Part shown: positions 25,724 to 35,723 of the stretch, piece after piece | How positions within the stretch are numbered: position 1 is the first letter of the stretch | How the letters are laid out: every line of letters begins with the position of its first letter | Assembly (NCBI GenBank): GCA_021648405.1 | Contig: JAKISX010000005.1 | Location: 1-51,308, forward strand | DNA length: 51,308 bases | Direction: 5' to 3' | Source of the DNA: Sulfurimonas sp. | Lineage (GTDB): Bacteria > Campylobacterota > Campylobacteria > Campylobacterales > Sulfurimonadaceae | Program-made: the position numbers and the translations under genes | The notes under the pieces: generated by a model | Databases searched by the model: none | What the model was told of the DNA's origin: nothing | The model's input: only the letters and a program-made list of their open reading frames with translations

Positions 25724-26372
25724 TGATTCCAATACAGCCATTTTAGTTATTGCTGGAATTAACGGTGATGAAGCTATGTAGCTTTCGCTTACTTTAGTAT
25801 TACAAATAATAAACCAGCTTTTACGATAGACAATGGTAAAAATTTATCTTCATTATCTCAAAAGCATCTTATTTAACTGCTAGCAATTGGAGAATTTATG
25901 AAAATAATGGATATAAAATATGAAAAAGATTTTGTCTTAAGTGAGTAAGATATTGAAAAATTACAAAAAGTCATGGCAAATTATTAATAAATGATTCAAT
26001 TTTGCTAAATTTAAATAATATCAAAAAAAAATTAAGCTACTTTCTGTTACAATAAGAGAATATTGTGTTTAAATTTATCCGTCCTCTAGGAAGCGCAAAG
26101 AGAACAAGGGATGAATTTGTCATTTAGTAGGAAATAAAAAATAACAACTTTATATCCACAATATTTTAAATATGAGGTTGATTATCACTAAACTTTAGTT
26201 TATATGGTTGATAATCAAAAGAAAATTTAACTATAGCTTTAGAAATTTTTGAAAATGCCGATTTTGTCATAATGAATGAAAAATTCATTAAGAGTAAAAA
26301 TCTGAAAGTGGTATTAAAATTGCTTTCGGTTCGATGAATAAAAAATTTTTAGAGTTGAATTTTATAAAATAA
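25722..26372 (+). pseudogene. Decayed M14-family carboxypeptidase, probably a csd4/pgp1 remnant
   Basis: Frames contain NDSNTAILVIAGINGDEAM*, YFSITNNKPAFTIDNGKNLSSLSQKHLI*LLAIGEFMKIMDIKYEKDFVLSE*DIEKLQKVMANY*, TTLYPQYFKYEVDYH* and KSESGIKIAFGSMNKKFLELNFIK*, in collinear order with stops, frameshifts and a large internal deletion. Confidence 0.75.
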
Positions 26373-26418
26373 AAATTTGTTCCATGCAATTGGTTCATTT
26401 TAAATAGGATAATTATTA

Positions 26419-27957
26419 ATGGGCGAAAATACTCAACAATCTTTTTCAAATGTAGTATCTATTAATCCGTATAATGATACTTGTGTAAATGGTCTTTCAA
26501 GTTTTTTAAAATATGATGATAAGGTAACTTTTTCCAAAGGTCAGCACTCTATATCATATCTAAATACAAAAGATTTCATCAGTACTCAAATTTCAGTTAG
26601 TAAAAATATTCCCGAAGAGGACATCTACGATGCGGTTAGCACTAAAGCATATGATGATTTAGCCTTAGATCAAGCTGTATCATATCAAATTCAATATGTA
26701 GAATTGTATAATTCTCTTGATAGTGAAAATAGATTATTTAATGTTTTTATAGTAGACCCAGATATTATAAAAGAAACATTTGAAAATACTATATCTAAAA
26801 TTAAATATATTGATACAATAATTCCATCGCCTCTTTTAATTAAATCTTTATATTCTAAGGATTTAATTACCAGCAGTGATACTCATGCTTTTATATACAT
26901 TCAAGCTAATAATGCTTTTATAGCTGTATATAATGATAAAAAATATATTTTTAGTAAAACTCTTGAGTATTCATTTATTCAATTACATGAAAAATTTTGC
27001 GAGTTATATGGTGAAAAAATTGAGTATAATGACTTTATAAATTTTTTACAAGATGAAGACTTAAAAACATCTTCTAGTCCTTATAAAGAGTTTGTAATAA
27101 AGTTATACAAGGATATTTTTGCAAATATCAATGATATTCTTACTTATGTAAAAAGAGCTTACGAACTTAAAAAAATTGATTGTATTTATGCTGGTACTCA
27201 AATAAACATGACCACAAAACTAGATGAAATTTCTGAATTTGAGCTAAATATTAAAAGTAGTTGTTTTGAATTTGATTATGGTTTTGAATCGGATGAAGAT
27301 GAGTACATTGATCAACTTCATTCGCTCATGCATCTATATACCATTATTCCTGATGAAGAAAAATATATTTGTAATTTTTCAATATTTGAAAGACCTCCAA
27401 AGTTTGTTCAAAGAGATAGTGGTAAACTCATATTAGTTGCTGCGGCAGCACTTGTTTTAGGTTTTGCTTACCCTGTGTCTTATTGGGTTGCTACTTATGC
27501 TCAGTCATTGCAAATAAAATTGTTAAATAGTGAATATCGTATCATAAATAATAAAAAAATAACAAGAGAAACTATAATTAAAAATCGTAATGCTGACAAA
27601 GATAAATATGCAAAGTTATTAAATCAAGAACAAAATGAGTTTATTTCCAAAAAAGAAACTTTAACAAAAATTCGCGATGTAAAAATAAACTACCTTATGA
27701 AAGCAAAAATATTAACAGCTCTTACAAAAGATTTGAACAAATATAAAATAAGACTTGAATCTTTATCTTTTGACGATAAAAATGAAAAAAATACTTTTAT
27801 GCTAGACTTAGTATCATATAAAGACGTAAGCATAACTAAGCTAGTCAAATATTTAACCAAAACTCATGAAGGTAAGATTAACTTTTCTCTAAAAAAGATA
27901 GCTTTTGATGAAGAGAACAAAAAATACTTTAGTACATTAAAGGTGGAAATATTATGA
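26419..27957 (+). CDS. PilM/GspL-like actin-fold cytoplasmic domain plus TM and PilN-like coiled-coil region (type IV pilus/T2SS inner-membrane assembly component)
   Basis: 512 aa: large soluble N-terminus, single TM (LILVAAAALVLGFAYPVSYWV) and coiled-coil C-terminus; first gene of an operon with PilO-like, secretin, GspE and GspF genes. Confidence 0.6.
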   Translation: MGENTQQSFSNVVSINPYNDTCVNGLSSFLKYDDKVTFSKGQHSISYLNTKDFISTQISVSKNIPEEDIYDAVSTKAYDDLALDQAVSYQIQYVELYNSLDSENRLFNVFIVDPDIIKETFENTISKIKYIDTIIPSPLLIKSLYSKDLITSSDTHAFIYIQANNAFIAVYNDKKYIFSKTLEYSFIQLHEKFCELYGEKIEYNDFINFLQDEDLKTSSSPYKEFVIKLYKDIFANINDILTYVKRAYELKKIDCIYAGTQINMTTKLDEISEFELNIKSSCFEFDYGFESDEDEYIDQLHSLMHLYTIIPDEEKYICNFSIFERPPKFVQRDSGKLILVAAAALVLGFAYPVSYWVATYAQSLQIKLLNSEYRIINNKKITRETIIKNRNADKDKYAKLLNQEQNEFISKKETLTKIRDVKINYLMKAKILTALTKDLNKYKIRLESLSFDDKNEKNTFMLDLVSYKDVSITKLVKYLTKTHEGKINFSLKKIAFDEENKKYFSTLKVEIL

Positions 27958-28589
27958 GTTTAAATACTACTATAGAAAATTATTTGCATAGAATTGATGC
28001 AGCGTTTAAGCAAAAAAGCAAAAAAGATGCTAAGCTTACCTATATGATGGTAGCTGGTGTGATCTTTGCATTTGCATATCTTTTTTGGGATAGCTCAGTT
28101 GATGATTATGTTGCTTCAAAAAATGAAATATCTATTATACAATCAAATATAAATGCAGATAAAGCATATCTGCAAGCAAATCCTGAAACTGTGATTGCGA
28201 ACCTTGATAATGAAATCAAAAAAATCAAAATTAAATTAATTGACAAAAAAGACCAAAATGCCTATATTAAAAGCAAAATTGAAACAATATCAGATATTAT
28301 TTATGATGAGAGACGATGGGGGAAATATATTGACTCAATTGCATCAAATGCAAAAAAATACAATGTTAAAATTTTAGAATTTAATAATCACTACGTAACC
28401 TCTGATGAGTCATTTGGTCATATGCTTGATTTAAATATAAGCGTAACTGGTAGCTACAAAAATACGCTTAAGTTTATAAATGCATTAGAGCAAAGTGATT
28501 TAGTTGCGGATATAAATGGCCTTGATATAAAAGCTCAAGATAAATTAAACACTGATCTTAAAATCTCTGTATGGGGGATAATATATTAA
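27954..28589 (+). CDS. PilO-like inner-membrane assembly protein
   Basis: N-terminal TM (MMVAGVIFAFAYLFW), coiled coil and ferredoxin-like C-terminus (VKILEFNNHYVTSDESFGHMLDLNISVTGSYKNTLKFINALEQSDLV). Confidence 0.65.
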   Translation: MSLNTTIENYLHRIDAAFKQKSKKDAKLTYMMVAGVIFAFAYLFWDSSVDDYVASKNEISIIQSNINADKAYLQANPETVIANLDNEIKKIKIKLIDKKDQNAYIKSKIETISDIIYDERRWGKYIDSIASNAKKYNVKILEFNNHYVTSDESFGHMLDLNISVTGSYKNTLKFINALEQSDLVADINGLDIKAQDKLNTDLKISVWGIIY

Positions 28590-29029
28590 TGAAAAAATTA
28601 ACACTGTCTTTAATACTACTTACAAGTTTATTAAGTAGCAATGACTTAGTATGGATTGATGAGCAAATAGATGCAATTAAACCACCTAGAAGTGGTGAGC
28701 ATAACTCAAAAATTAGTAGGATTAGCGATCCATTTATCTTTTTAGAAAAAAATGGATATAAGCCTATTAAAAAAATTAGTAAGAAGACTGATTTGAAAAA
28801 AAATGATTCAAATATAAAGTCTGTTTTTAGTAGTTCACTGCTAAGGCTGTCTATGATTATGAATGGTTCAGCGCTAATAAACAATAAATGGTACAAAGTA
28901 GATGATTGGGTAAAAAAATATAAAATTATTGAAATATCTAATTCATCTGTAACATTAAGACGTAATTCAAAAACAAAAGTTATTTCTACAGCTTCAAAGA
29001 ATGATAACTTAAAATTTAAAAGACAATAG
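28571..29029 (+). CDS. Small exported protein, MshK/PilP/GspC-like (positionally CtsR-like)
   Basis: Signal peptide followed by a GspC-HR-like pattern (MIMNGSALINNKWYKVDDWVKKYKIIEISNSSVTLRRNSKTKVI). Confidence 0.55.
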   Translation: MGDNILMKKLTLSLILLTSLLSSNDLVWIDEQIDAIKPPRSGEHNSKISRISDPFIFLEKNGYKPIKKISKKTDLKKNDSNIKSVFSSSLLRLSMIMNGSALINNKWYKVDDWVKKYKIIEISNSSVTLRRNSKTKVISTASKNDNLKFKRQ

Positions 29030-29039
29030 GTAGGTAACC

Positions 29040-30674
29040 ATGAAATCAATAAAAAAATATATACTGGGAATAAGTATATCATTAGCACTATCATTCCAAG
29101 CAAATGCAGATTGTTCATACGAACTTTTTAGTGTTAGTTCAACTAAAGGAACTAAAATAATTGACTTTATTGATCAATTAAGTGATCAATGTAAATTTAG
29201 TTTAATAGTAACCGATGTTAATGCTCAAAAATTTCTTAATACTTCCTTAAATAAAACTCATATTAAAAATTTAACTATTAATGAAGTTCTAGGTATTATA
29301 TTAAAAGAAAATAACTTATTTTATACATTAGAAAATAATCTTTTAAAAATTTCATACCTAACTACTAAAGTATTTAATATTGACTACATCTTATCTCAAA
29401 GAATAGCTACTGGGAGCACAAACGTTACTCTTAGCTCATCTTCAAGACAATCTCAAAAAGGTGGCGCTAGTAGTGGTGGTGCTGGTGGTGGTGGCGCTAA
29501 TAATAATCAAGGATCAAGTAGTAAATCTGGTATAAAGATTGAAAGCAATGATGAAGTTGAATTTTGGAAAGAGTTAGATTTAGAGCTTCAAAAAGTATTA
29601 AATAGACCAGAGGATGTGTATGTAGCTGATGAACCAATTATAAATAAAAATGCTGGTTTAATTACAGTTACAGCAACACAAAGACAAATGAGCAGATTAG
29701 ATAGTTATTTAAAAAAACTTCAAGATAAGGTTCAGCTTCAAGTTTTAATAGATGTACAACTGCTCTCTGTAACTATGAGTGAAGGTAAAACTACGGGTGT
29801 AGATTGGCAGCAACTTTATGCACTTCAAAATATTAGTATAGATATACATGATTTGCGCTATAAAAATGTTTCTGAATTTACAACTGGTGATGATGACACC
29901 TCAATTACAGAAGCTACTTATAATGGATTTAGAGATGTAGCTAATTTAGTTAGTATAAAATCTAGTGGCTCTATAAATGAAGTTATTAAATTTTTAAAAA
30001 CTCAAGGTGATGTAACTTCAATCTCTAATCCAAAAGTTTTAACTTTAAATAACCAACCAGCACTTATTACAGCTGGTACTGAATTTTTTTACAAAGTAAA
30101 ATCATCTACTAATCAACAAGGATCTGGTGGTGGTGTTGCTTCTACTACTCAAAATGAATCTATTCAATCTGTATTTGCTGGTGTTCTTTTAAGCATAACA
30201 CCTGAAATATCTGACGATAAAACAATCACACTAAAAATTAATCCATCTTTGTCTGAAACTGCAAATGATATGAGTCAAACAACTTCTGCTGAAAGATCTA
30301 TGCCACCAGATTTAAATCGTCGTCAATTATCATCAGTTGTAACTATACAAGATGGAAATAGAATAATTTTAGGTGGTCTAATCAGCACTAAAAATACTAA
30401 AAGTTCAAATAAAATTCCTATTTTAGGTGATATTCCAATTCTTAATTATCTGTTTAAATACGAATCAAATTCTAAACAAGTCCAAGAGCTTGTTATAGTT
30501 ATAGAGACACATATAATTAAAAAAAATAATAACTCATTGTCATTATCAGATTTAGGATATAGTAGTATTTCTGAGGATACTATACAAAGTAAGAAAAGCT
30601 TGATTTCTGTAAATACTGATACATCAGCTAAAAATTCTAATTCAAATAAAATACAATTAGAAAATGAAATCTAG
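29040..30674 (+). CDS. Secretin (MshL/PilQ/GspD family; CtsD-like)
   Basis: Signal peptide, STN/secretin N domains, VQLQVLIDVQLLSVTMSEGKTTGVDW, SNPKVLTLNNQPALITAG and RIILGGLISTKNTKSSNKIPILGDIPILNYLFKYES. Confidence 0.93.
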   Translation: MKSIKKYILGISISLALSFQANADCSYELFSVSSTKGTKIIDFIDQLSDQCKFSLIVTDVNAQKFLNTSLNKTHIKNLTINEVLGIILKENNLFYTLENNLLKISYLTTKVFNIDYILSQRIATGSTNVTLSSSSRQSQKGGASSGGAGGGGANNNQGSSSKSGIKIESNDEVEFWKELDLELQKVLNRPEDVYVADEPIINKNAGLITVTATQRQMSRLDSYLKKLQDKVQLQVLIDVQLLSVTMSEGKTTGVDWQQLYALQNISIDIHDLRYKNVSEFTTGDDDTSITEATYNGFRDVANLVSIKSSGSINEVIKFLKTQGDVTSISNPKVLTLNNQPALITAGTEFFYKVKSSTNQQGSGGGVASTTQNESIQSVFAGVLLSITPEISDDKTITLKINPSLSETANDMSQTTSAERSMPPDLNRRQLSSVVTIQDGNRIILGGLISTKNTKSSNKIPILGDIPILNYLFKYESNSKQVQELVIVIETHIIKKNNNSLSLSDLGYSSISEDTIQSKKSLISVNTDTSAKNSNSNKIQLENEI

Positions 30675-31473
30675 CATCTTTAGCACTTCAAAAGATGTTT
30701 TTTTAGATACAGTAAATGCAAAAGATTATGTACAACTAGATCGTGTCTCTACAATTTATCAATCATTGAAAGCTTCTGTAAAGAAGCCTCTTAAAATGAT
30801 TTTACTTTATGGCAAGCCAGGGACTGGAAAGAGCATGTTTTTATCTAAACTGCACCATGATTTATCTAAAACTGAAAAGATACACTATTATATGACACCA
30901 ATTTTAGATGAAAGTGAATTTTATAAATCTATTGCGCATGACTTATATGATGTAGACAGTGAAAATGAATTGAACTTTACACAAATGATAAAAATTCTTA
31001 AAAATAAAAATTCAGACGAGATACCTCTAGTCTTATTAGATGAAGCACAGCTTTATTCAGATAGTTTAATGGAAAAAATTAGATTATTGTCAGATACTAG
31101 AAAAATCAAATTTATTATCGCTTTACATAAAACTCAAAAAGAAGATTTAATAGCAAAAGAGCATTTTAAAACTAGAATATGGGAATCAATAGAATTAAGT
31201 AATGCAAGTATTGTTGAATTAAAAATATATATACAAAAAAAACTCATGAAAGCCAACTGTTTTGATAGTGCAAATATGATTACAAATAGCTCTATAAAAC
31301 TTATACATAAACTTACAGATGGAAATTATAGAGACACAAATAAATTATTAAACACAGTATTTGAAATTTACTCTTATTATTACAACAATAGCCCAGACAA
31401 GATAAGTACGAATAAATTATCAAATAAAATTATTGAGATGTCTGCAATTCATACCGGATTAATAAATGCATAA
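30664..31473 (+). CDS. AAA ATPase (MshM/ExeA-like; CtsP-like)
   Basis: Walker A LLYGKPGTGKSMF, Walker B IPLVLLDEAQLY; overlaps the secretin stop. Confidence 0.8.
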   Translation: MKSSIFSTSKDVFLDTVNAKDYVQLDRVSTIYQSLKASVKKPLKMILLYGKPGTGKSMFLSKLHHDLSKTEKIHYYMTPILDESEFYKSIAHDLYDVDSENELNFTQMIKILKNKNSDEIPLVLLDEAQLYSDSLMEKIRLLSDTRKIKFIIALHKTQKEDLIAKEHFKTRIWESIELSNASIVELKIYIQKKLMKANCFDSANMITNSSIKLIHKLTDGNYRDTNKLLNTVFEIYSYYYNNSPDKISTNKLSNKIIEMSAIHTGLINA

Positions 31474-32203
31474 TATATATGAACTTGAAAAGCAGTGGAG
31501 AAATTATAAAACTAGAAAATATCTTCCTCATGTTGGCGCAGTGATAACTACTTTATTTTTACTTGCATATGTGTTTATAACTATTACTACTCCAAAAAAA
31601 AAAGAGGTGCAAAATGTTCTTAAAGAAAAGAGTACGGAGTATTTAGCTATAGAAGAAAAGAAACCTAAAGAAATTATAAAGGAGAAGGTTAGTAATGAGA
31701 ATAAAACATTAACACTAAATCCTTCTTTTGACTTTATAAAAAATTTACAATCAAATTCAATAACTACTTATAAACCAAAAGCTGAAAAAATTCAATCATA
31801 TCAAGCTCAAGACTCAAGCTCTATTGAAGAAAATACGGAAATAATATATATAGAAGAACTAGATGAAAAAATTGCAACTATTTCCCTTGTAAAACAAGAA
31901 ACTACAGATGATATTAATCATGTTATTAAAAGATTTGAAAAAAACAACAATCCTGCCCTTGGTCTTTTTATAGCTAAAAGATATTATAAACTCAAAGACT
32001 ATCAAAAGTCTTACAGATATGCTTTTCTTACAAATGATATAGATGCTGATATTGAGGAAGCTTGGATGATATTTTCAAAATCTTTGGTAAAATTAGGTAA
32101 AAAAGAGATTGCAATAAAAGCGCTACTAAAATACATACAACAGTCTAATTCTAACAATGCAAAAATATTGCTTGAAAATATTGGAACAGGAAAATTTAAA
32201 TGA
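31466..32203 (+). CDS. Membrane-anchored TPR-like protein (MshN-like position)
   Basis: N-terminal TM (VGAVITTLFLLAYVFITI), charged linker and helical repeats (ALGLFIAKRYYKLKDYQKSYRYAFLTNDIDADIEEAWMIFSKSLVKLGK). Confidence 0.6.
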   Translation: MHNIYELEKQWRNYKTRKYLPHVGAVITTLFLLAYVFITITTPKKKEVQNVLKEKSTEYLAIEEKKPKEIIKEKVSNENKTLTLNPSFDFIKNLQSNSITTYKPKAEKIQSYQAQDSSSIEENTEIIYIEELDEKIATISLVKQETTDDINHVIKRFEKNNNPALGLFIAKRYYKLKDYQKSYRYAFLTNDIDADIEEAWMIFSKSLVKLGKKEIAIKALLKYIQQSNSNNAKILLENIGTGKFK

Positions 32204-32742
32204 AAATAATATTTTTAATATTTTTTTACCTCTCTCTTAATGCAGAAATTAAAAATAATATGTTTATTCTTTATCAAAATGAAAAATATGAAAAAGCTTG
32301 TAATCTTGGTTATGGTGATTTAAATGAAAATACTAGAGATGAAGAATTTATGTCATTATACGCTTTTGCGTGCTTAAAATCTGACTATATTGATAGACTA
32401 AGCATACCAATAGCATTACTAAAATCTACAAAAGAATCTCGCTCTAACGCAGCTTACTTTTCAGTAATTTTAATGCAAAAAAAACTTTTATATCATGCCT
32501 TAGTAGATGGATATGACTTATCAGTATTTAAACTTCCAACAACAAATTATGTTTTATCAAAAATATTTGATTTGTATTCAAAACTAGCAAAACATGAAAC
32601 CCGTTCTATATATTTATTTGAAGATGAAGAAAATTCAAAAATTACATACAAACTTTACCTTGAAAATAACGATAGATTAAGCAAAATGATAATTGAAGTG
32701 TATTATGATACAATATCAGTACAACGACATGTATATTGGTAG
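32200..32742 (+). CDS. Hypothetical exported protein within the pilus/T2SS-like operon
   Basis: Intact ORF overlapping both flanking genes' context; N-terminal signal peptide-like sequence; no recognised family. Confidence 0.55.
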   Translation: MKIIFLIFFYLSLNAEIKNNMFILYQNEKYEKACNLGYGDLNENTRDEEFMSLYAFACLKSDYIDRLSIPIALLKSTKESRSNAAYFSVILMQKKLLYHALVDGYDLSVFKLPTTNYVLSKIFDLYSKLAKHETRSIYLFEDEENSKITYKLYLENNDRLSKMIIEVYYDTISVQRHVYW

Positions 32743-32751
32743 GAAAATTAG

Positions 32752-34482
32752 ATGGATAGAATAACAACAGACTTACTTGAAAATGGCTTGATTATGAAAG
32801 GTCAAGTTAATAGACTAATAGCTAAGGGTATTAATAATTCATTAATTCTCAAACATATTACACAATCTGGTTTTATGACAATGGATAGACTAGTTCGATT
32901 TATTGTAGATAAAATAAGAAAAGGGGTATATGAGTTATCAATAATTGCAGAATATGATTATATAAAAGAAAGTACCGTCTTAACAAAACTATCAAAAGAG
33001 TTAAATTTAGACTTTATTGATTTAGATGATGCCCATATTGATGATAGTTTGACAAATAAAATTCCTTTTGCCCAACTTCAAAAATATAATGCCTTCCCTG
33101 TTTACTCTGATGATACAAATGTTTATATTGCTTTAAATGATCCACTAAATATAGAAGCTAAAGAATCCTTGCAAAGACTTTTTAAAAAAACTTTAATAAT
33201 AAAAGTTGCAGTGAAAAAACAAATAACTCAACATCTATTTAAAGTATCTCTTAAAGATAAAGAAAAAGTGTTAGTTAAAAAGGTACGCGATGAGTTAAAT
33301 TCAATTAATACTCTAGAAGAGCAGCAGCAAGCTTCATCAATACTTTTACTAATTAATGTAATTTTAGATGCTTGTATACAAGGTCGTGCTAGTGACGTGC
33401 ATATAGAACCATCTGAAAGAAGTTGCTCTGTTAGAGGTAGAATTGATGGTAAATTATCTGAAATATTCATTTTCCCAAAAGATATATTTGCGCCACTAAC
33501 ATCACGAATAAAACTATTGGCAAATCTAGATATTGCTGAAAAAAGAAAACCGCAAGATGGGCGCTTCTCATCTATAGTATCTGGAGTAGAATACGATTTT
33601 CGCCTCTCAACTCTCCCCACATTATATGGTGAATCCATAGTTATGCGTGTGCTTGACAAACAAAAAGCACTTGTAAAACTTGAAGAAGCTGGTATGGATA
33701 CTCAAAGCTATCATAAATTTCAAAAAGCATTAAAGACTCCATATGGTATTATTTTAGTAACTGGACCAACTGGTAGTGGTAAAACTACTACTCTTTATGG
33801 AGCTTTAAATGAAATCAAAGATATATCAGATAAAATAATAACAGTTGAAGATCCAGTTGAGTATAGAATGAGTTCTATTCAACAGGTACAAGTAAATCCT
33901 AAGATTGGTTTAAAATTTGCAGATGCGCTTCGTTCCATTTTAAGACAAGATCCTGATAAAATTATGATTGGGGAGATTCGTGATAGCGAAACTCTTGAAA
34001 TTGCTATTAAAGCAGCTCTTACAGGTCACTTAGTTATCTCAACTTTACATACAAATGATTCCATATCTGCAATTCCAAGAATGGCAGATATGGGGATACA
34101 GCACTATTTAATTTCTGGTGCGGTTATAGCTATTGTTGCGCAAAGATTAGTTAGAAAAATTTGTAGTCACTGTAAAACCATTCAAGAAATTCCAGCATCA
34201 ATAATTGAAGAATATAGCGATTTTATAAGCGCTGATGATATATTTTATATTGGTAGCGGCTGTAAAGAATGTAATGATACAGGATATTCTGGTCGTGAGA
34301 TGATTTGTGAAATATTAAATATTTCAGAAAAACTATCTTCTTTAATAGCCAAATCTGCATCAAAAGAAGATATGCATAAACAAGCAAAAGAAGAAGATTT
34401 TATTGGAATATTTGAAAATGGTATTCAAAAAGCAAAAGATGGCATTACATCTTTTAAAGAAATATTAAGGGCGGCCAAATGA
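32752..34482 (+). CDS. GspE/PilB-family secretion ATPase (CtsE/MshE-like)
   Basis: ASDVHIEPSERSCSVRGRIDG, GPTGSGKTTTLYGAL, ITVEDPVEY, LRSILRQDPDKIMIGEIRDSETLEIAIKAALTGHLVISTLHTND and tetracysteine CSHC...CKEC. Confidence 0.96.
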   Translation: MDRITTDLLENGLIMKGQVNRLIAKGINNSLILKHITQSGFMTMDRLVRFIVDKIRKGVYELSIIAEYDYIKESTVLTKLSKELNLDFIDLDDAHIDDSLTNKIPFAQLQKYNAFPVYSDDTNVYIALNDPLNIEAKESLQRLFKKTLIIKVAVKKQITQHLFKVSLKDKEKVLVKKVRDELNSINTLEEQQQASSILLLINVILDACIQGRASDVHIEPSERSCSVRGRIDGKLSEIFIFPKDIFAPLTSRIKLLANLDIAEKRKPQDGRFSSIVSGVEYDFRLSTLPTLYGESIVMRVLDKQKALVKLEEAGMDTQSYHKFQKALKTPYGIILVTGPTGSGKTTTLYGALNEIKDISDKIITVEDPVEYRMSSIQQVQVNPKIGLKFADALRSILRQDPDKIMIGEIRDSETLEIAIKAALTGHLVISTLHTNDSISAIPRMADMGIQHYLISGAVIAIVAQRLVRKICSHCKTIQEIPASIIEEYSDFISADDIFYIGSGCKECNDTGYSGREMICEILNISEKLSSLIAKSASKEDMHKQAKEEDFIGIFENGIQKAKDGITSFKEILRAAK

Positions 34483-35723
34483 CAAACTATTATGAAGCAA
34501 CTGTTCTCACTAGAGGTAAGAAAAAGAAATTTGGTTTTTATGCAGAGGATAAAAATGATGCTACTGATATAGCAAAAATTAAGTATTCTGGTCTTTTTAT
34601 TAAAGTTGAAGTGGCTAGTGAACCATTAGAGTTTAGATTAAAAAAAATAAAGTCTAATCTACTAAAAAATGTTAAAAAGAAAAAAATAAAGTCTGATGCT
34701 TTGATAGCATCTATTCGCCAGCTTGCTGTTATGACTAATGCTGGTCTTCCTATTCATGATTCTATCACTGAAGTATCCAACTCTACCTCTGATACTAGTT
34801 TAAAATTTGTTTTAGATAACCTTGCTGATGATATTAATTCTGGTAGTTCACTATCAAAATCTATGGAAAATTTTAAATTCGAACTTGGTAATTTAACAAT
34901 AGCTATGGTAAAACTTGGAGAAAAAACAGGTAACCTAGATGAATCACTAGAGGCACTAGCTGGTATGCTTGAAGAGATTAGAAGCAATGTTATTAAGTTT
35001 AAAAAAGCAATGGCATATCCTAGAAATGTAATGATAGCAATGGCTATTGCGTTTACAGTTCTTATATCATATGTAGTACCTCAATTTAAGTCTATATTTG
35101 AACAATTAGGTGCAGAATTACCATTACCGACATTAATTCTTTTAAAACTTGAACATATTTTTAATAATTATGGTCCCTATGTTCTAGTTGGTGGTTTTTT
35201 AATTTTTGTAATTTCAAAATATGCTATTGATAATTATAAAGATATTAGATATAAATGGCATCAATTATTACTAAAAACATATCTTATAAAGAATATTATA
35301 AAATATTCTACACTTAATCGCTTTACTTTAGTTTTATCTGAACTTGTGCGTGCAGGTATTCCTATTGCCGAAGCACTAGATACTGCAACAGACATGATAG
35401 ATAATTTACCTTTAAAGGAAAAATTATCAACAATTAGAATTGCTGTGGAAAAAGGTCAACAACTAAATGAAGGTTTACATGATACTGAGCTATTTGAAAA
35501 CATGATTACACAAATGATAAAAGCTGGTGAAGACGGTGGAGCATTAGACAAAATGATGGAAAAAGTTGCTGAATATTATAAGATGAAATTTGATGCAATT
35601 ATCGATGGTCTATCTGAATCAATTGAGCCTATAATGTTAATTATAATTGCAGCGATGATTTTACTTTTAGCTCTTGGTATCTTTATGCCTATGTGGAGCA
35701 TGGGTGAAGCAGCAGGGCTATAA
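34479..35723 (+). CDS. GspF/PilC-family inner-membrane protein (CtsF/MshG-like)
   Basis: T2SSF domains: RQLAVMTNAGLPIHDSI, GEKTGNLDESLEALA, SELVRAGIPIAEALD and MIKAGEDGGALDKMMEKVAEYY. Confidence 0.95.
   Translation: MTNYYEATVLTRGKKKKFGFYAEDKNDATDIAKIKYSGLFIKVEVASEPLEFRLKKIKSNLLKNVKKKKIKSDALIASIRQLAVMTNAGLPIHDSITEVSNSTSDTSLKFVLDNLADDINSGSSLSKSMENFKFELGNLTIAMVKLGEKTGNLDESLEALAGMLEEIRSNVIKFKKAMAYPRNVMIAMAIAFTVLISYVVPQFKSIFEQLGAELPLPTLILLKLEHIFNNYGPYVLVGGFLIFVISKYAIDNYKDIRYKWHQLLLKTYLIKNIIKYSTLNRFTLVLSELVRAGIPIAEALDTATDMIDNLPLKEKLSTIRIAVEKGQQLNEGLHDTELFENMITQMIKAGEDGGALDKMMEKVAEYYKMKFDAIIDGLSESIEPIMLIIIAAMILLLALGIFMPMWSMGEAAGL

Follow-up and report, generated by a model that had tools for sequence, protein, structure and literature searches.

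As judged by sequence comparison, the nine genes at positions 26419 to 35723 of the window encode the core of an MSHA-type type IV pilus machine, with its envelope and motor parts. The window is the whole analysed stretch of 51,308 nucleotides, which is contig C55 in an assembly of 71 contigs that is 82% complete. It is quite probable that the block is a vertically inherited MSHA-type pilus operon of the Campylobacterales, that the cts system of Campylobacter jejuni is its shortened descendant, and that the retracted fibre brings DNA into the cell. Both this class of machine and the cts system were already known. The explicit link between MSHA and cts across loci appears to be new, and a literature search, with most subscription papers beyond its reach, found no paper joining the two. 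All nine open reading frames (ORFs) are intact, start with ATG and lie on the forward strand. Neighbouring genes overlap by 4–19 bases or are no more than 10 bases apart (range –19 to +10). From 5′ to 3′ they are called M, O, C, D, A, X, Y, E and F. The Pfam and NCBIfam searches recognised PilO (weakly), a secretin, AAA_22, T2SSE with MshEN, and T2SSF, and these sequence models gave no clear family for M, C, X and Y.

M (26419–27957, 512 aa) is the conserved first gene of the operon among relatives and stands in the position of MshI. One membrane segment was predicted at residues 334–361, and a PDB sequence search gave nothing usable. The single-sequence structure model of M was confident at its C-terminal end only, where Foldseek retrieved XcpY, PilN and PulL domains (E 2.8e-3, target TM 0.78–0.80). 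Because the modelled end resembles these periplasmic domains, M fits an inner-membrane subunit of the MshI/GspL/PilN type, with a PilN/GspL/GspM-like periplasmic C-terminal domain. O (27954–28589, 211 aa) is a PilO-like inner-membrane protein in the MshJ position. It has one predicted membrane segment and a conserved position in the operons of relatives, and its match with Pfam PilO (E 3.7e-4, 21.1 bits) is slightly below the cut-off of 22. C (28571–29029, 152 aa) is a small PilP/GspC-like periplasmic protein in the MshK position and the counterpart of CtsR; a profile of its relatives matched, at 1.1e-11, the ORF that stands in the CtsR position in the C. jejuni-group genome described below. 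D (29040–30674, 544 aa) is the outer-membrane secretin, of MshL type, and the CtsD counterpart. A (30664–31473, 269 aa), an AAA ATPase of the ExeA/MshM kind and the CtsP counterpart, matched AAA_22 at E 4.7e-13 and carries the Walker motifs GKPGTGKS and LVLLDE. X (31466–32203, 245 aa) is a TPR-like protein anchored in the inner membrane by one predicted segment, with a conserved C-terminal repeat region; it takes the MshN position and is the CtsX counterpart. Y (32200–32742, 180 aa) has a probable signal peptide, as read from the sequence, and was located in 13 loci among those retrieved from relatives. The alignment of the 13 members contains nine invariant residues, including two cysteines, C34 and C58. 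Y had no PDB, Pfam or NCBIfam match and its single-sequence structure model was unusable; it appears to be a new conserved component. E (32752–34482, 576 aa) is the extension ATPase and the MshE/CtsE counterpart, with T2SSE at E 4e-132, MshEN at E 7e-14 (both Pfam), a Walker A motif GPTGSGKT and a CxxC...CxxC cluster. Its closest PDB sequences are PilB. The last gene, F (34479–35723, 414 aa), encodes the polytopic inner-membrane platform and is the MshG/CtsF counterpart (T2SSF, E 2.6e-53, under every named equivalog cut-off).

The secretin was the most informative protein for the class of the machine. D scored 268.2 bits against the NCBI equivalog TIGR02519 (MshL) and passed the cut-off of 250.2. 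It failed the GspD model (159.5 bits, cut-off 351.35) and was well below the PilQ cut-off. The MSHA biogenesis genes of Vibrio are ordered mshI-J-K-L-M-N-E-G. The window order M-O-C-D-A-X-E-F parallels it, with Y as an extra gene; plasmid records contained no close MshL match for a direct comparison of the order. The first-pass annotation had been reminded of MSHA pili by the AAA ATPase and the TPR anchor, and their positions do match those of MshM and MshN. The mandatory genes of MSH systems are mshA, E, G, L and M, and such systems have already been reported in Epsilonproteobacteria (Denise et al. 2019, PMC6668835). Here, MshL is represented by D, and MshE and MshG by E and F in the expected order, with no match of the operon proteins to MshE- or MshG-specific NCBIfam models. 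The MshM candidate is A, right behind the secretin, which matched no MshM-specific NCBIfam model. MshA, the major pilin, may be encoded as a loner, and the N-methyl pilins on contigs C67 and C68 are candidates for it. The sole A24 prepilin peptidase match of the genome is on C70, outside the operon. The window shares with MSHA pili, for example Vibrio cholerae msh, an MshL-type secretin, an adjoining MshM-like AAA protein, a TPR protein, an MshEN-bearing ATPase, a platform and a locus without prepilin peptidase. Its genome differs in having the pilins at two remote loci, whereas MSH systems are mostly encoded at a single locus (Denise et al., PMC6668835).

The earlier label of the operon was type II secretion/MSHA-like. 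The MshL cut-off, the MshEN domain and the gene order uphold its second half, while the first half falls with a GspD score so far below the cut-off. A type II secretion system exporting folded proteins would share the GspE, GspF and secretin superfamilies with the operon, but the operon differs from it in secretin type and accessory genes and has no linked pseudopilins, all N-methyl matches being on other contigs. Besides, the genome has a separate Gsp-like locus on C15 with GspE, GspD, GspF and linked pilins. The best family of the C15 secretin is GspD (332.6 bits, a little below the cut-off of 351), and E, F and D of the operon are all apart from the C15 system in the trees. The operon is therefore very improbable as a type II secretion system, and this reading was rejected because of the score of D and the existence of the locus on C15. 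As a side observation, a same-genus genome carries the machine twice. The second copy (L076, G011:C1:1860000-1876000) is divergent and has pilins at both cluster ends, and its secretin is narrowly under the MshL cut-off at 246.8.

The operon is widely conserved. The AAA gene was present in 53 of 60 relatives and in 183 of 200 genomes of the family, and the order M-O-C-D-A-X-(Y)-E-F is repeated across many families of Campylobacterales. The recurrence of the nine-gene block is far beyond chance. Some families do not have A or Y in the operon (e.g. f7 and f14). In the window, hslV-hslU-era genes stand upstream of the operon, and the operons of relatives are several times preceded by ORFs whose lengths fit these genes. 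Since the order recurs across families, several times behind such ORFs, the comparison points to one operon passed down vertically as a unit in the Campylobacterales. The nine overlapping or near-overlapping genes of the first-pass annotation thus hold as an operon, by their coordinates and by their conserved order. A promoter scan gave matches only at shuffled expectation.

For the comparison with cts, a scan of named genomes for a cts-like ATPase returned Helicobacter burdigaliensis and three metagenome-assembled genomes (MAGs), and no C. jejuni. Genome G327 was treated as a C. jejuni-group genome, by inference from gene lengths and gene order. Beside a 1186-aa gene it has six ORFs ordered F-E-X-P-D-R, with lengths of 393, 519, 195, 202, 470 and 103 aa. 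The published lengths are 519 for CtsE, 195 for CtsX, 202 for CtsP, 472 for CtsD and 105 for CtsR (PMC8308473). It also has a CtsG-like pilin of 171 aa and a CtsT-like pilin of 100 aa directly after a ProC-like gene of 243 aa, all three equal to the published lengths. Single-sequence comparison of the window with this genome gave 7e-113 for E, 2e-72 for D, 4e-49 for F, 8e-18 for A/CtsP and 5e-9 for X/CtsX. The synteny comparison proposed earlier thus found ctsR-D-P-X-E-F in the window order, as C/R-D-A/P-X-E-F with each pair detectably similar. The C. jejuni-group CtsD passed the MshL model by more than D of the window (334.4 bits). The secretins of cts join the full-length operons of their own family in the secretin tree (support 85/93), and the cts group is nested in a clade of window-type secretins supported at 98/98. 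Trees of E and F place cts apart from type II secretion; their backbones are weakly supported and their cts branches are long. The resemblance to cts noted at first sight is accordingly one of real homology, in view of the matched gene order and of CtsD inside the window-type clade. These sequence comparisons indicate common descent of cts and the window machine rather than convergence. The window operon differs from cts in containing M, O and Y. Four C. jejuni-type loci (L114, L115, L116 and L125) showed no M or O near cts, and no Y was found near cts in the C. jejuni-group loci. Locus L119, from the same family as G327, contains M-O-C-D-E-F beside a 1176-aa gene and is, by gene content, an intermediate layout between the full operon and cts. 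The cts system of C. jejuni is probably a shortened descendant of the Campylobacterales MSHA-type operon. Separately, Helicobacter burdigaliensis (L051/L080) has a cts-like M-O-C-D-X-E-F cluster without the AAA gene and with pilin-like genes divergently upstream; its ComEC match has several stops inside.

The operon had also been described as pilin-less. This is correct for the window, which contains neither pilin nor prepilin peptidase, and incorrect for the genome, where C67 and C68 carry pilins and C70 carries the peptidase. Eight N-methyl matches were counted genome-wide, of which four belong to the type II secretion-like locus on C15, two to C67 and two to C68. ComEC is on C67, about 9 kb from the pilin there, and DprA is on C24. 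All the parts that the first-pass annotation wished to see elsewhere in the genome, namely pseudopilins, prepilin peptidase, ComEC and DprA, are therefore present, and its objection of a genome with no pseudopilin or ComEC does not apply. On C67, a 151-aa pilin immediately precedes priA (PriA was confirmed by model search). Several families show the same pair, and so does the C. jejuni-group genome, whose pilin is the Cj0683 counterpart. A profile made from non-Campylobacter members only, with the N-terminal region removed, matched at 2.4e-27 and 3.6e-26 two members of f11, to which the C. jejuni-group genome belongs, and no pilin outside the priA-linked type better than 0.15. By this profile, the C67 pilin is an ortholog of Cj0683. 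Cj0683 precedes priA, interacts with CtsE in the yeast two-hybrid system, is needed for efficient uptake and was reported to be unique to Campylobacter (PMC10046745). The uniqueness claim fails here because the priA-linked pilin family extends over several Campylobacterales families; the pilin beside priA at L062:13208-14333 belongs to it. The wider Cj0683 family appears, from these searches, to be new.

On C68, the order is lon-bamD-fliW-1368 aa-209-296-175, and that of the C. jejuni-group counterpart is lon-bamD-fliW-proC-CtsT-220-150 (lon, bamD, fliW and proC were named by reading sequences, without model searches). The minor pilins of C68 hence share the lon-bamD-fliW position with ctsT-Cj1078-Cj1079. 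The third gene matches its C. jejuni-group counterpart clearly (2.5e-8), sequence support for counterparts of CtsT and Cj1078 is weak, and no specific CtsG counterpart was identified in the window genome. The 1368-aa protein directly upstream of the minor pilins (contig C68 of G000, L063:4799-8905), another difference from cts, had no Pfam or NCBIfam match. Large proteins similar to it stand at the same place in L168 and L171, whereas the C. jejuni-group genome does not have it there. It is possibly a pilus tip protein.

From the gene content, homology and gene order observed here, a mechanism can be proposed for this organism; that it forms a pilus, retracts it, and binds and takes up DNA are the predicted elements. 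The peptidase encoded on C70 would cleave the pilins of the priA-linked pair on C67 and of the minor-pilin cluster on C68. E, working on the platform F, would polymerise the cleaved pilins, with M, O and C as the putative inner-membrane alignment complex and with A and X helping assembly. The fibre would leave through the secretin D and be retracted by two PilT-family ATPases, both encoded in the genome (one checked separately, 454 bits). Retraction would carry bound DNA into the periplasm, from where ComEC would pass one strand to the cytoplasm and DprA would protect it. Attachment may be a further use of this fibre. DNA uptake by such a machine has been demonstrated in C. jejuni only (PMC10046745). 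By orthology to the tested C. jejuni genes, it is reasonably likely in this organism too; the core operon and the priA-linked pilin provide the strongest basis, and the minor pilins a weaker one. This relative of C. jejuni thus probably has a retractable DNA-catching pilus with its pilin genes elsewhere in the genome.

Phylogenetic profiling lends uptake no support, since near-complete relatives without the AAA gene retain intact ComEC. Co-loss of the operon and ComEC was rejected as uptake evidence because the counts were uninformative: among the 200 genomes, ComEC is missing from 2 of about 22 without a good AAA match and from about 10 of 178 with one. One case is a 99% complete genus member without the AAA gene (G010). 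One of its PilT-family genes (G010:C8:177785-178810) is interrupted by an in-frame TAA, and it retains intact ComEC and the priA-linked pilins. Genus g50 is taken here as Helicobacter proper, and 13 of its genomes (e.g. G118, G129 and G189) gave no secretin match. N-methyl pilins were absent from all three g50 genomes checked and the A24 peptidase from both that were checked, while DprA was kept in both that were tested. The gaps in secretin, pilin and peptidase fit the T4SS-derived system by which Helicobacter takes up DNA (PMC6668835).

On the other hand, the MSHA-type pilus could serve mainly surface attachment or twitching, with uptake secondary at most here and raised to the main role in the C. 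jejuni lineage alone. In line with this alternative, nearly every genome of the family has two PilT-family genes, the 1368-aa protein stands before the minor pilins and is absent there from the C. jejuni-group genome, and ComEC is retained in genomes without the operon. Campylobacter ureolyticus, with annotated MshL, MshM and PilT, is reported to use type IV pili for its movement (PMC3758288). Against the alternative, ComEC and DprA are present, and C. jejuni takes up hardly any DNA once it has lost Cj0683, a member of the priA-linked pilin family. As the principal role, attachment or twitching is rather unlikely; as one activity of this pilus, it is plausible. The two readings overlap because uptake pili commonly have further roles. 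Returning to the DNA-catching pilus, we tentatively suggest, and might well be wrong, that the C. jejuni uptake machine is a reduced MSHA-type retractile pilus, and that species of the window type keep the unreduced form with PilT motors, a possible tip protein, Cj0683-type pilins and Y, one fibre serving both uptake and attachment. Environmental relatives are therefore places to study the fuller machine and give hints at the parts that C. jejuni lost. The study also names Y as an unstudied conserved component, and the wide Cj0683 family contradicts a published claim.

In the 695-base gap ahead of the operon (25724–26418), a gene for a helical-cell-shape carboxypeptidase (Peptidase_M99) survives as broken remnants. 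At the same place, the gene is intact in two genus relatives (430 and 432 aa). Upstream of the remnants, a YkuD protein with a Cds6_C domain is encoded. Considering the broken gene behind this protein, helical cell shape may possibly have been lost, with an assembly fault as the alternative.
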